From a virus: 37,015 bases of DNA. The notes beneath the pieces were generated by a model. The model was not told where the DNA came from. It saw only the letters and a list, made by a program, of their open reading frames with translations, and did not search any database. This document shows, piece by piece, positions 3,390-23,128 of the stretch. Each line of letters begins with the position of its first letter. Position 1 is the first letter of the stretch. The DNA is taken from positions 1-37,015 of the IMG/VR virus record IMGVR_UViG_3300042879_000598; one strand, written 5' to 3'. Position numbers and translations under genes: made by a program.

Positions 3390-3417
3390 AATATAGTCTG
3401 TTGCGTAAAAACGTCAA
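3390..3417 (-). promoter_or_regulatory. Predicted sigma70 promoter for the scaffold-coat operon
   Basis: On the minus strand TTGACG (reverse complement of 3412-3417) and TATATT (3390-3395) are separated by 16 bases. Predicted transcription starts near 3383, giving a leader of about 40 nt to the scaffold start, with AAGGA just before its ATG. The -35 box overlaps the stop codon of the tailspike gene. It would give extra transcription of scaffold and coat, which are needed in the highest amounts. Sequence-only prediction. Confidence 0.55.
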
Positions 3418-8134: not shown

Positions 8135-8497
8135 TCACGCTAAATGCTTGAGCTTATAAAGCGTCGATAAGTACAACGCTACAATCTCGTCAATAATGTT
8201 TTGAATTGCGCTGTCTTTTTCCTCGCAAACCTTGTATCGGTTTGCCTCGATTTCCGACAGTGAATCCTCCAAAAACTCAACAATGTTGCCGTTTTTCTTG
8301 GCAGACATCAGCGAAATTGGGCCCATCAGCCCGTGCCGACCTTGATAGGCTTCGGCGAAGTCATCCGCCAAATCCACGATTTTGTCGTAAAACGAACCCA
8401 ACGCCTTGTGTTTGGCGTAGCTACGGGTATTCAGATGCACTGAATGCGCCACATCTCGCGCTAGGAATAAATGACCTACGAAATCTGCCGCCTTCAT
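8135..8497 (-). CDS. DUF5856-like helical protein (possibly ferritin/Dps-like)
   Basis: A 120-residue, almost entirely helical protein (ARDVAHSVHLNTRSYAKHKA, SFYDKIVDLADDFAEAYQGR). The pattern of His, Asp and Glu on successive helices (HLNTRSYAKH, FYDKIVDLAD, EIEANRYK) resembles phage proteins grouped as DUF5856, which have been compared with Dps/ferritin folds. The start overlaps the portal stop by four bases, so it is coupled to portal translation. Family assignment is from memory of the sequence pattern; an iron-binding or DNA-protection function is speculative. Confidence 0.62.
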   Translation of the reverse strand: MKAADFVGHLFLARDVAHSVHLNTRSYAKHKALGSFYDKIVDLADDFAEAYQGRHGLMGPISLMSAKKNGNIVEFLEDSLSEIEANRYKVCEEKDSAIQNIIDEIVALYLSTLYKLKHLA

Positions 8498-17071: not shown

Positions 17072-17314
17072 ATGGGGTGGAACTTGTCAGAGGAAGAGGC
17101 GAAGGCGTTATGGGAAGTTGAGGACGTACCGCACGGGCCGAAGGCGCACGAGTGGGAATCGCCCGATGAGCGGTGTATACGCTACGAGAAAGCTCTACGG
17201 GGGATTCTGGCGTGTAGCAGCAACGACCGCATGGTTATCATGCTTCAGGCCGTAGCGGCTGCTGCGCTACGTGAGCATGAGTTGGAAAAATGGTACATGG
17301 AGCGCCTCAAGTGA
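17072..17314 (+). CDS. Small early protein, 80 aa, unknown
   Basis: Starts MGWNLSEEEAKALWEVEDVP, with a His/Glu-rich segment (HGPKAHEWESPDERCIRYEK) and C-terminal amphipathic helices (MLQAVAAAALREHELEKWYM). AAAGGGG precedes the ATG. No family recognised. Its stop overlaps the GTG of the next tiny frame. Confidence 0.6.
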   Translation: MGWNLSEEEAKALWEVEDVPHGPKAHEWESPDERCIRYEKALRGILACSSNDRMVIMLQAVAAAALREHELEKWYMERLK

Positions 17315-19849: not shown

Positions 19850-20169
19850 CAAAATGCGATGTCGTCGTCTTTAAAGTCCGCCGACGCCCAATTGTCTTCG
19901 GTCAGGCCAGAGTTCACGGCCTTCTTCATGGCAGGCGGTGCGCCCTTTGGCTTGACCTTGATTGAGAAGTATTCGTTACCGTTGCGGCCTTTCTTCTTGT
20001 AAAGATCGACCCAGTAATTGACGCCACCAATCAGGCCGCTGCCTTTGTAGTCCGCATCGGTGCGCACCCATTCGGTGCCGTCCGGGTTCTTCATCACCTG
20101 ATCCGGGCGCTTGTCTTCGTTCGCAAACAATGTCGCCGTGTTCGGTTTCGGTTCGTACTTCGTCTTCAC
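19849..20169 (-). CDS. Putative single-stranded DNA-binding protein
   Basis: A 106-residue protein, GTG start overlapping the exonuclease stop (GTGA). The core (TLFANEDKRPDQVMKNPDGT, then GLIGGVNYWVDLYKKKGRNG, YFSIKVKPKG) looks like a small beta-barrel. The C-terminus is ADFKDDDIAF, very close to the acidic tip DDDIPF with which bacterial SSB recruits partner proteins. With the neighbouring exonuclease and ERF annealase it would complete a recombination set. SSB assignment rests on the tip and context, as the barrel itself is divergent. Confidence 0.68.
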   Translation of the reverse strand: MKTKYEPKPNTATLFANEDKRPDQVMKNPDGTEWVRTDADYKGSGLIGGVNYWVDLYKKKGRNGNEYFSIKVKPKGAPPAMKKAVNSGLTEDNWASADFKDDDIAF

Positions 20170-20777
20170 AGGGTCATCTCCTTCAGGGCTTTAACCTTTT
20201 CATCAAGTTCAGCCAAAAACTTCTGAACTTCGTCCTCTAGCACTTTGATGGTGTCGTCGTCGCGCTCAATGCGCACGATGAGAAGCTGCAAGTTCTGCGG
20301 CATACGCGGGTCATACGACACCCAATCGCAAAACGTCGCCATGGCACAGGCCATCTGCCACTGCATCTGGTAGTAATACTTTTGCGGCGGCTCCTTGGTC
20401 ATTAGGTATTCGATGTGCTGCGCCGTGTTCGGGCACTTGATTTCAACGATGCCATTGGGTGGCACAGTGCCGTCAGGTGACGCGCCCGTCATCGGGATCG
20501 TCGGGTGCGGCAGGAAGCCCACCTCCGTCACGAACTCACCGCGTGCGGCGCTATACGCATCACGGGCCATCGGCTCTTTTTCAATGCCCCACATCATGGC
20601 CGTGCTGCTAAAGCCTTCGGTCGGCTTTCCAGTCAGGCGCTCAACCACAAGCTCGGCCATGTAGTTATTGCGAGAAGCGGCGTAGCCAGTCTTTGTGCGG
20701 GCCATCACATCTGCAATGCGTGATGCCGTTACCTTACCGACCCGAGCCTCCCACCATTCCGGTGTTCGCTGATCCAT
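20166..20777 (-). CDS. YqaJ/lambda-exonuclease family 5'-3' exonuclease
   Basis: A 203-residue PD-(D/E)XK nuclease. Family hallmarks are EWWEARVGKVTAS (residues 7-19), MMWGIEKEPMA (61-71), catalytic Asp102 in GASPDGT, and Glu112/Lys114 in IVEIKCP, followed by KYYYQMQWQMA. It would resect double-strand ends to leave 3' tails for the ERF annealase encoded upstream, supporting recombination-dependent replication and circularisation. Abuts the genes on both sides. Confidence 0.92.
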   Translation of the reverse strand: MDQRTPEWWEARVGKVTASRIADVMARTKTGYAASRNNYMAELVVERLTGKPTEGFSSTAMMWGIEKEPMARDAYSAARGEFVTEVGFLPHPTIPMTGASPDGTVPPNGIVEIKCPNTAQHIEYLMTKEPPQKYYYQMQWQMACAMATFCDWVSYDPRMPQNLQLLIVRIERDDDTIKVLEDEVQKFLAELDEKVKALKEMTL

Positions 20778-21257: not shown

Positions 21258-21470
21258 CGTTACCTTCCTCAACGCTTTCAATATGTGCTGCAAAGACGGC
21301 GAATGGCTGTAATCACCATGAGCAATCATGTCGTCTGCGTTTTCATTCCAAATGAAATCGCCCTCTGCGGTTACGCGCAAAACTTCGTTGTCTTGCAATT
21401 TGATAACCGTGTTTTCGTTTCGCATCGTATTTACATTCTGTGCTGCGCGAATAATGTCGTCGCGGGTCAT
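21252..21470 (-). CDS. Small protein with MTRDDI start, 72 aa
   Basis: Starts MTRDDIIRAAQNVNTMRNEN, then a beta-rich centre (TVIKLQDNEVLRVTAEGDFI) and a C-terminal helix (SPSLQHILKALRKV). After the first six residues there is no clear similarity to the neighbouring MTRDDI protein. AT-richer than its neighbours. Linked by ATGA overlaps to ERF upstream and the next gene downstream. Function unknown. Confidence 0.68.
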   Translation of the reverse strand: MTRDDIIRAAQNVNTMRNENTVIKLQDNEVLRVTAEGDFIWNENADDMIAHGDYSHSPSLQHILKALRKVTT

Positions 21471-21472
21471 GT
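21452..21472. repeat. Duplicated gene-start sequence, copy 2
   Basis: Identical over 21 bases to 21237-21257, covering start codon and first codons of the adjacent gene. Suggests one small gene was replaced or built by recombination at a shared 5' end. Confidence 0.85.
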
Positions 21473-22012
21473 GAGCGCCTTCTTGCGTGCCTTGAACACG
21501 TCGATATGCGCTTCACGCACGTCCTGCGGGACGCTGTTGTAGAGCTTGTTGAGTTCGTCTGCCGTAGCGGTCGCGGCGATCTTGGCGAGAAGTTCAGGGT
21601 TCTGCGGCGCAGATACCTTGTGACGGCCCTGTGCAGCCTCAGCGTCATCGTCAATCTGAGCAAGACCGACAATCGCAGCGAGTGCGTAACGCCGGGCGTA
21701 GGTGATACCGCTGCCTTGTCCCTGCGGGCTGTCGTCTTTCGTCAGGATCGGGCAGTACGACTTAATCCACTCGCCACTCGAGTGAGCAAGCGTAGTTACA
21801 AGAATGGCGCGGCCCTCACCGACCTCGATGGTCTGGATGACGGCAAGCCCGTTCTCACTGAGTTGCTTGCGGCAGGCATCCCAGCACGCGGCAAGGTCGG
21901 CGTACTTAGACTTGAAAAAAGGGTTGCTGCTGTCTTTGAGTGCGCCTGTGATATTCGCCTGCGCTTTTGACAGTGCCGCTGCGAGGGCGGCGATAGATTC
22001 GGACTGATTCAC
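21467..22012 (-). CDS. erf: ERF family single-strand annealing protein
   Basis: A 181-residue protein, shorter than P22 Erf (204). The N-terminal domain has the family pattern NPFFKSKYADLAACWDACRK, GLAVIQTIEVGEGRAILVTT, and the signature GSGITYARRYALAAIVGLAQ followed by DDDAEAA. The C-terminal part (LLAKIAATATADELNKLYNS) is helical and may bind partner proteins. It anneals complementary strands exposed by the YqaJ exonuclease. GTG start overlapping the previous stop. Confidence 0.92.
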   Translation of the reverse strand: MNQSESIAALAAALSKAQANITGALKDSSNPFFKSKYADLAACWDACRKQLSENGLAVIQTIEVGEGRAILVTTLAHSSGEWIKSYCPILTKDDSPQGQGSGITYARRYALAAIVGLAQIDDDAEAAQGRHKVSAPQNPELLAKIAATATADELNKLYNSVPQDVREAHIDVFKARKKALT

Positions 22013-22236
22013 TTGACACCTCCGAGTTCGGCACGGGCCTTGTCGATGGCGGCAATGATGTCGCGCAGCCCGTTGCTAAATTGCGTGGAACACGCGGCTT
22101 CGATTTCGTTGACTTCGCGCAGGCTGGCAAGCGCATTCCAGGCGGCCTGCTCAACGCGCTGCTGCGCCTCCAGATAACGCTCGGTCATCTCTTGAAGGTC
22201 GCGGCCATATTGCGGCTGATCTTCTTGGTCAATCAT
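22009..22236 (-). CDS. First gene of leftward early operon, 75 aa
   Basis: Starts MIDQEDQPQYGRDLQEMTER, all helical and acidic, with heptad-like spacing (YLEAQQRVEQAAWNALASLR). AGGAG lies seven bases before the ATG, which is preferred over an upstream in-frame start lying inside the promoter region. First gene after the leftward promoter at 22273-22300, directly before erf. Family unknown; an accessory to the annealase or an early regulator are possible. Confidence 0.68.
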   Translation of the reverse strand: MIDQEDQPQYGRDLQEMTERYLEAQQRVEQAAWNALASLREVNEIEAACSTQFSNGLRDIIAAIDKARAELGGVK

Positions 22237-22272
22237 CGGTTGTCTCCTGAGTGGGGCCAATCCCCGTAGCCA

Positions 22273-22300
22273 ATCCTACGCTCTCTAGCGGGCTTGTCAA
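22273..22300 (-). promoter_or_regulatory. Leftward early promoter
   Basis: On the minus strand a perfect -35 TTGACA (22295-22300) and TAGGAT (22273-22278) are 16 bases apart, giving a start near 22266 and a leader of about 30 nt. CTACGC (22276-22281) overlaps the -10. This is the strongest sigma70 match seen in the window. Confidence 0.72.
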
Positions 22301-22322
22301 CACCTCTTGCGTAGCGTATTGT
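22294..22322 (+). promoter_or_regulatory. Rightward cro promoter, leaderless
   Basis: TTGTCA (22294-22299) and TATTGT (22317-22322) are 17 bases apart. The cro ATG at 22330 is seven bases after the -10, so transcription should begin at or within a base or two of the start codon; no Shine-Dalgarno site is present. The -35 overlaps that of the leftward promoter, on the other strand. GCGTAG (22309-22314) mirrors CTACGC at 22276-22281 around this centre. Confidence 0.65.
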
Positions 22323-22329
22323 CCGCGTC

Positions 22330-22518
22330 ATGGACATTGACAAACTCATCAAGCATTTCGGCAGCGTCAAGGAAATGGCAAAAGCCCTCGACGTTTATCC
22401 TCAAGCGATTTATCAGTGGAAAGAGGGCGGCATCCCGTTGCTGCGGCAGTATCAAATTCAGGTCGTCACGAAGGGCCGATTCAAGGCCATCGAAGACGGA
22501 TACCGAGGACCGATATGA
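22330..22518 (+). CDS. cro: Cro-like repressor, 62 aa
   Basis: A 62-residue helix-turn-helix protein matching P22 Cro in length and pattern: KLIKHFGSVKEMAKALDVYP (helices 1-2), QAIYQWKEGGIPLLRQYQIQ (recognition helix and turn), ending VVTKGRFKAIEDGYRG. It would bind palindromic operators as a dimer and repress early promoters, including its own. No CI-type partner repressor or integrase is present, so here Cro is probably a timing regulator of a lytic cycle. ATGA overlap couples it to the next gene. Confidence 0.87.
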   Translation: MDIDKLIKHFGSVKEMAKALDVYPQAIYQWKEGGIPLLRQYQIQVVTKGRFKAIEDGYRGPI

Positions 22519-22862
22519 ACAATCCAGTTACGACATCAAGCGACATCAGCTACGCCAGCCAGGCAGGCATGAAGCATTGGGATGAAAAGGTCGGCACCGT
22601 CATCGGCAAGTTGCATCTAGCCGACGCTTACCTTGCCCGCATCACCGTGGGCGACTGGCAGCAGCGCCGGGAAAAGACCGAGTGGCTGAAGAGTTATATC
22701 GGGCCGCTGGTGCGTCAGGCCGACGCGGCAGAGGTTTTAGGCGATCCGGGGTTGACCGGGATGGTGCGTCAGCTATGGGGTGAGCCAGGCGTGACCCGAC
22801 TTCGTGATAAAGTCAAGGCGTGCGCTACGCCAAACGACGCGACAATAATCACGCAGAAATAG
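22515..22862 (+). CDS. Unknown protein downstream of cro, 115 aa
   Basis: Starts MNNPVTTSSDISYASQAGMK, then HWDEKVGTVIGKLHLADAYL and DWQQRREKTEWLKSYIGPLV; predominantly helical with several Trp. The position directly after cro, coupled by ATGA, is where lambdoid phages encode CII-like or replication proteins, but no helix-turn-helix or initiator domain is evident. The end overlaps the following nuclease gene by 43 bases. No family recognised. Confidence 0.68.
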   Translation: MNNPVTTSSDISYASQAGMKHWDEKVGTVIGKLHLADAYLARITVGDWQQRREKTEWLKSYIGPLVRQADAAEVLGDPGLTGMVRQLWGEPGVTRLRDKVKACATPNDATIITQK

Positions 22863-23128
22863 TCTCCGCCCTGAGACAGTGCGGATTTGAGGTCATTGAC
22901 TTCGCTAGTGCCGGGCATGACATCCCCGACATATTGGCCGTAAAAGCCATTACAGACGACTTGTCGTGGGCCTGCTGGGTAGAGGTGAAGTCCAAGAACG
23001 GACGGCTCTCAGACGGCCAGAAACGGTTTCAGGCCATATTCCAACCGAGAGGCGAGTGGTATGAGGGCCGTGACCCCGAAGAAACGGTCGCTGCGCTACA
23101 GGAAATGTACTTGAAGGCGGCCAGATAA
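22820..23128 (+). CDS. VRR-NUC-like nuclease, 102 aa
   Basis: GTG start. The sequence has the small PD-(D/E)XK pattern of VRR-NUC proteins: RRDNNHAEIVSALRQCGFEV (N-terminal Glu), GHDIPDILAVK (catalytic Asp), then CWVEVKSKNGRLSDGQKRFQ with the ExK pair. The C-terminus (PEETVAALQEMYLKA) is the usual closing helix. Stand-alone VRR-NUC proteins can cut branched DNA, so a Holliday-junction or packaging-substrate role is reasonable. The weak ribosome site and overlap suggest coupling to the preceding gene. Confidence 0.82.
   Translation: MRYAKRRDNNHAEIVSALRQCGFEVIDFASAGHDIPDILAVKAITDDLSWACWVEVKSKNGRLSDGQKRFQAIFQPRGEWYEGRDPEETVAALQEMYLKAAR

Follow-up and report, generated by a model that had tools for sequence, protein, structure and literature searches.

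The cI-cro regions of lambda, P22, N15, phiKO2 and PY54 carry divergent promoters and a P22-type Cro as the first rightward gene, and the same was observed in the viral DNA analysed here, which is the entire 37,015-base virus record IMGVR_UViG_3300042879_000598 (hereafter the window). In lambda/P22-type regions the divergent gene is cI, whereas in the window it is a 75-aa gene followed by genes for an Erf-type and a YqaJ-type protein; phiKO2 and LC3I3, which are temperate and have a related Cro, also differ from the window in that their divergent gene is annotated as a repressor. The cro mRNA of the telomere phage PY54 was mapped by RACE as leaderless, according to the available portion of that report (PMC4488713), and the same is predicted for the window. 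Opposite overlapping promoters that likewise serve a regulator gene and a main operon are described for Pc/Pr of pLS20, and in the accessible part of that study (PMC4207663) the polymerase is proposed as part of the switch, with the overlap used together with the regulator. The same part holds that the -10 and -35 boxes of pLS20 are thought to coincide crosswise and that its weak promoter needs activation by RcoLS20, whereas in the window one -35 is present on both strands and both sites are consensus-like. The bidirectional promoters of E. coli, as far as the available text of Warman et al. (PMC12825309) describes them, likewise combine symmetry with a polymerase that binds in two orientations, one at once, but they share a -10, with starts beside or within it, whereas the window shares a -35; overlapping E. 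coli promoters compete, in the same text, only if one direction is strongly active. Both overlapping divergent promoters and a leaderless cro have precedents. No phage promoter pair of this kind was found in the literature searched, subscription journals lying largely outside its coverage, and what is new here is a variant in which the two occur together, with no recognisable CI, on a single -35 that both promoters share and that is conserved and slides among relatives.

The virion genes of the window are P22-like and include portal, scaffold, coat, head closure Hc3, DNA ejection and terminase genes, as revealed by the PHROGs scan. The PHROGs and Pfam scans covered selected ORFs of a total of 196, the rightward ones being those at 22330, 22515 and 22820 in both scans and those at 17072 and 23140 in the Pfam scan. 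At the thresholds used, 24 of the 26 ORFs with PHROGs matches lie on the minus strand, a tally in which most scanned ORFs were leftward ones, and the plus strand contributed cro (22330) and the VRR-NUC gene (22820). The nearest portal proteins, at 70-73%, are those of DSL-LC05 and of a Manatee Spring record, and the annotated early genes of those phages differ from those of the window. The search for near-identical phage records found none, the Rfam search gave no match, no tRNAs were found in the window, and scans of genome contigs provided no prophage relative as a host clue. Directly downstream of the portal gene, the minus-strand stretch 8135-8497 matched PHROG 858, a family named 'starvation-inducible transcriptional regulator'.

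A total of 93 bp separates the ATG of the leftward gene (22236) from the ATG of cro (22330), and the promoter pair lies inside this interval. On the left, the minus strand carries the 75-aa gene (22009-22236), which has no family match, an AGGAG ribosome site and homologs in relatives, followed by the gene for the Erf-type ssDNA-annealing protein (21467-22012; PHROG 2324, E 5e-41; Pfam ERF, E 6e-24) and that for the YqaJ-type exonuclease (20166-20777; PHROGs/Pfam scans), which bears out the original prediction that recombination genes lie on this side. On the right, where cro had been proposed, the plus-strand gene at 22330-22518 encodes a 62-aa Cro-type repressor (Pfam P22_Cro, E 1.3e-19, 70.2 bits for a cut-off of 30.2). 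It is followed by a 115-aa gene without a family match that is kept alongside cro in relatives (22515-22862) and by a VRR-NUC-type nuclease gene (22820-23128; Pfam VRR_NUC, E 1e-6), which ends the short rightward unit.

The two promoters are arranged on the heptamer TTGTCAA (22294-22300), which reads TTGTCA on the plus strand (22294-22299) and TTGACA on the minus strand (22295-22300), so that the two hexamers together occupy exactly seven bp, as had been claimed; all the coordinates check. The leftward -10, TAGGAT (22273-22278, minus strand), follows TTGACA after a 16-nt spacer with 10 of 12 consensus matches, while the rightward -10, TATTGT (22317-22322, plus strand), follows TTGTCA after a 17-nt spacer with 9 of 12 matches and sits 7 nt ahead of the cro ATG. 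The leftward -35 is perfect and the rightward -10 matches at only four of six positions when judged by the sigma70-type consensus, from which the sigma factor of the host may differ. The -10 boxes are separate, 44 bp apart from centre to centre, and the pair does not belong to the bidirectional type with a shared -10; opposed promoter sites with overlapping core elements, as in overlapping divergent promoters, are what was found. These are the only promoter-like sites between 20500 and 24500 (shuffle mean 1.8), and the whole window holds one overlapping pair of such quality. With weight-matrix frequencies based on E. coli promoter compilations, the leftward site ranked second (11.35) and the rightward site seventh (10.36) among the 111 sites of the window above a score of 7. 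When the 93-bp intergenic region was shuffled 5000 times with its dinucleotides preserved, no equal overlapping pair appeared; the opposed sigma70-type pair is not due to chance, and the shuffles and matrix ranks agree with the earlier proposal of back-to-back promoters with a common -35.

We consider it probable that the interval serves early control in a P22-like phage, with PL- and PR-like promoters under Cro control fused on one -35. The leftward promoter would be the equivalent of PL, for the recombination and replication genes, and the rightward promoter the equivalent of PR, for cro. Since region 4 of sigma would hold the palindromic TTGTCAA in one direction at once, we infer from the geometry that occupancy is probably mutually exclusive, with the polymerase bound in one orientation at a time. 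Direct competition between the two directions, as the earlier proposal had it, may be lacking if the promoters are weak (PMC12825309).

The loci compared came from IMG/VR scans and from two phage records, with the locus of the window itself added. The 275 loci obtained included 264 with a Cro match and 262 with a usable upstream region, giving 163 distinct upstreams inclusive of the window's own, and the 25 distinct upstreams from loci in which the window's leftward gene has a homolog as well formed the aligned close set; locus L105, in which this homolog was not found, stands outside it. The block CTTGTCAA (22293-22300) was unchanged in all 25, and the intergenic DNA outside it had a mean pairwise identity of 0.66 and a minimum of 0.42. 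Only 24 of the 93 intergenic columns are invariant, eight of them forming this block, and the two spacers average 0.63 and 0.67 in the same alignment. Positions 1, 2, 5 and 6 of the leftward -10, which reads TATGAT in many relatives, and A2 and T6 of the rightward -10 were also invariant (25/25); positions 2 and 6 of the -10 count most for sigma70 recognition. The leftward score exceeded the rightward one in each of the 25, ranging from 11.35 to 13.52, and the leftward TTGACA was exact in 123 of the 163 distinct upstreams, which have differing Cro types. C22293, which lies beyond both hexamers, was equally invariant (25/25), and TTGC(G) at 22307-22311 in the right spacer was conserved (0.92-1.00 for TTGC) with no obvious role, which means that other constraints also act at the region. 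In other families, a TTGC-type box near 22307-22311 (offset -11 to -13) is the rightward -35.

Variations in the geometry were observed even within the close set, 21 of whose 25 members take their right -35 from the shared heptamer. In L135, L143 and L144 the right spacer counted from TTGTCA is shortened to 12, against 17 in the window, and a compensating TTGACT, absent at that position in the other 22, stands 17 nt from the -10; these three are close kin, and the change of spacer and the TTGACT may represent one event. L100, the exception among the 25, lacks the shared geometry and has a longer right spacer, only a weak TTTGCA at 18 bp and a weak right promoter. Among the 100 of 163 upstreams that passed the score filters, the offsets between the -35 boxes were +1 (23), -13 (19), +11 (17), -11 (15), -12 (4), +12 (4), +6 (3) and other values (15), a spread showing that other Cro clusters have separate back-to-back or interlocked -35 boxes. 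In L041 and L042, one promoter's TTGACA falls inside the spacer of its partner, and the region is palindromic throughout. Upstream of cro in L041, L042, L053 and L206, interlocked palindromic promoters were seen with TTGACA/TGTCAA about 11-12 bp apart and an identical -10 word, TATCAT or TATCCT, on both sides.

This spread bears on an unlikely alternative, in which both promoters are real and the shared -35 is mere compaction, firing being too rare for competition and Cro alone acting as regulator. At basal level, five of the five E. coli bidirectional promoters tested showed no competition, according to the available part of PMC12825309. In addition, exact sharing is not required, since the -35 boxes of other Cro families of the group lie 10-14 bp apart or are interlocked (+11, +12). 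Against compaction stand the perfect leftward -35 and the leftward scores of all 25 relatives, early phage promoters being usually strong. It is also very unlikely that TTGTCAA is kept mainly as a binding site for Cro or a host factor, its resemblance to two -35 boxes being secondary; the palindromic form of the heptamer and the invariance of C22293 outside both hexamers would suit such a site, but both -10 boxes hold promoter spacing, the TTGACT accompanies the shortened spacer in the three kindred loci, and the exact leftward TTGACA recurs across differing Cro types.

The reading of a promoter fusion on one -35 is also consistent with the predicted 5′ ends of the two mRNAs. In all 25 aligned relatives the right -10 is 6-7 nt from the ATG of cro and a ribosome site (SD) is absent, so the cro mRNA looks leaderless. 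That the leftward promoter alone is real, with cro read from elsewhere and the rightward match a by-product of palindromy, is hardly credible, for although TATTGT is a weak -10 in a site of 9/12 matches and L100 lacks the shared geometry, A2 and T6 of the right -10 are invariant and this distance is fixed, with no ribosome site, in 25/25.

On the leftward side, the minus-strand element GGGGATTGGCCCC (22254-22266) is a predicted 5′-terminal stem-loop that begins 7 nt past the leftward -10, about where a start is expected, and the putative leftward start is supported by this position. The stem takes the form GGGG/CCCC or GAGG/CCTC in a covarying manner. Across 20 of the 21 distinct leaders, including that of L105 and omitting that of L106 (stem 6 nt after the -10, start codon unclear), 97.5% of the cells for the four stem pairs hold standard pairs, seven double changes were seen (six from G-C to A-U and one from G-C to C-G), and the covariation score was matched in none of 500 shuffles; L129 has lost the stem. 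The stem of GGGGATTGGCCCC could equally be a DNA palindrome as an RNA hairpin, and the covariation fits either. Beyond the window's clade the sequence is unrelated, yet a hairpin tends to occupy the same place. One comparison of hairpin position and energy took 131 of the 163 upstreams; in another, with up to five members per cluster, 20-mers at offsets 4-7 averaged -3.39 kcal/mol over 20 Cro clusters, compared with -1.27 (sd 0.29) when shuffled. No clear 5′ hairpin was observed in six of these 20 clusters (L010, L138, L166, L165, L206 and L085; shuffle fraction ≥0.45), and that of L207 is weak (shuffle fraction 0.18). A 5′ hairpin reportedly prolongs the life of some E. coli mRNAs (work of Emory in 1992 and Bricker in 1999).

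Two inverted words flank the shared -35 as candidate Cro contacts: CTACGC (22276-22281), three bases of which lie within the leftward -10, and GCGTAG (22309-22314), which is located in the right spacer and overlaps the conserved TTGC(G). A distance of 33 bp separates the centres of the two words, whose midpoint is 22295, the -35 centre being 22297. The original prediction had the positions, the 33-bp distance and the contact with the leftward -10 and the right spacer correct, but on its own the pair lacks significance, since 1678 of 5000 shuffles also held one or more perfect 6-bp inverted pairs, and the hexamers were discarded as stand-alone evidence. The idea that a single Cro dimer bridges CTACGC and GCGTAG was also rejected as the main idea: the known operators of this Cro family measure 16 bp, as given in the accessible parts of PMC4997575 and PMC4488713, and 33 bp exceeds what a single dimer would span. 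A possible 16-bp operator, CGTAG-CCAATC-CTACG (22265-22280), a perfect inverted pair, was seen by eye in the window's nearest relatives only.

Recognition of both -10 regions by a single Cro would lead one to expect arms that match within a locus and change together. The arms were compared in 105 of the 163 upstreams from 13 Cro clusters, namely those with a left score of at least 9, a right score of at least 3.8, no ribosome site and arms of sufficient length. For the best ungapped arm match, the mean was 6.35 when both arms came from one locus; with right arms swapped between clusters it was 4.43 (sd 0.40), and none of 2000 swapped draws exceeded the within-locus value; with the -10 hexamers masked, the values were 4.11 and 3.28, respectively (fraction 0.008). 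A score of at least 6 was reached by 79 of the 105 loci, and by 918 of the 8354 pairs formed across clusters. The window itself (L098, with an identical upstream) has an arm score of 6, which is the GCGTAG word. Paired with 99 right arms of other loci, its left arm reaches 6 in five cases, and its right arm does so with 13 of 99 left arms from elsewhere; taken singly, the window is therefore no more than suggestive. Scores of 7 were found in L106 and in L143/L144, and scores of 3-5 in L100, L104 and L105, near relatives that do not keep the GCGTAG words despite an almost identical recognition helix. Since the loci are related, most reliance should be placed on the cluster-level test, and the comparison across Cro families suggests, indirectly, a role of CTACGC/GCGTAG as Cro sites.

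As for the order of events, the leftward promoter would fire first and more often, and the early genes should dominate until Cro acts, given the higher leftward score in all 25 relatives. Transcription from the rightward promoter would be less frequent and give a leaderless cro mRNA, and accumulating Cro may then bind the words at both -10 regions, which would lower both leftward early transcription and its own synthesis. In the available parts of the reports on phiKO2 (PMC4997575) and PY54 (PMC4488713), however, Cro binds OR3 only and self-repression is not thought to occur, so repression of both promoters by Cro is not to be assumed; the E. coli findings (PMC12825309), together with those on pLS20 and phiKO2, keep dual repression hypothetical.

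The lifestyle of the group was assessed from 20 large records, the window and 19 relatives, which were chosen by hand and may be fragments. P22_Cro was found in all 20, the window thereby sharing the P22-family Cro of lambda/P22-type immunity, and the positive controls were matched. In these possibly incomplete records, neither a tyrosine integrase (PF00589) nor a serine recombinase (PF00239) was matched (0/20 each), and the Peptidase_S24 repressor domain was likewise matched in none of the 20. HTH_3 gave no match above the cut-off in the window, where the gene divergent from cro has no family match. It stayed below the cut-off everywhere; matches with E no higher than 0.001 occurred in 14 of the 20 records, and the majority of them fall on Cro. 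Apart from Cro, G014 (locus L148, which does not belong to the window's group) holds a repressor-like frame of 222 aa that diverges from it, and G012 has a second 78-aa frame. The window thus has no recognisable CI or integrase, and a highly diverged repressor is possible.

A further reading, which we put forward tentatively and regard as rather doubtful, is that this Cro, with no recognisable CI or integrase beside it, has no role in a lysis-lysogeny decision and is the sole partner of a polymerase-exclusion switch. PL and PR would have collapsed onto one -35, so that the orientation of the polymerase sets the ratio of Cro to lytic transcription, and each side would keep its own 5′-end strategy, a leaderless cro or a hairpin-started leftward mRNA, as the geometry slides between relatives (offsets from near -14 via +1 and +6 up to +12). 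The locus raises the question of what job Cro performs in phages apparently unable to lysogenise. It offers a compact, conserved case in which the orientation of the polymerase on a seven-base site may balance the repressor against the lytic programme without a lysogeny repressor. Separate, shared, shifted and interlocked -35 boxes within one Cro family could reveal the weight of the overlap in promoter competition, a point left open by current work on E. coli bidirectional promoters. Elsewhere in the window, the top-scoring promoter-like site was located on the minus strand at 3390-3417 (TTGACG, a spacer of 16, TATATT), ahead of the scaffold and coat genes.
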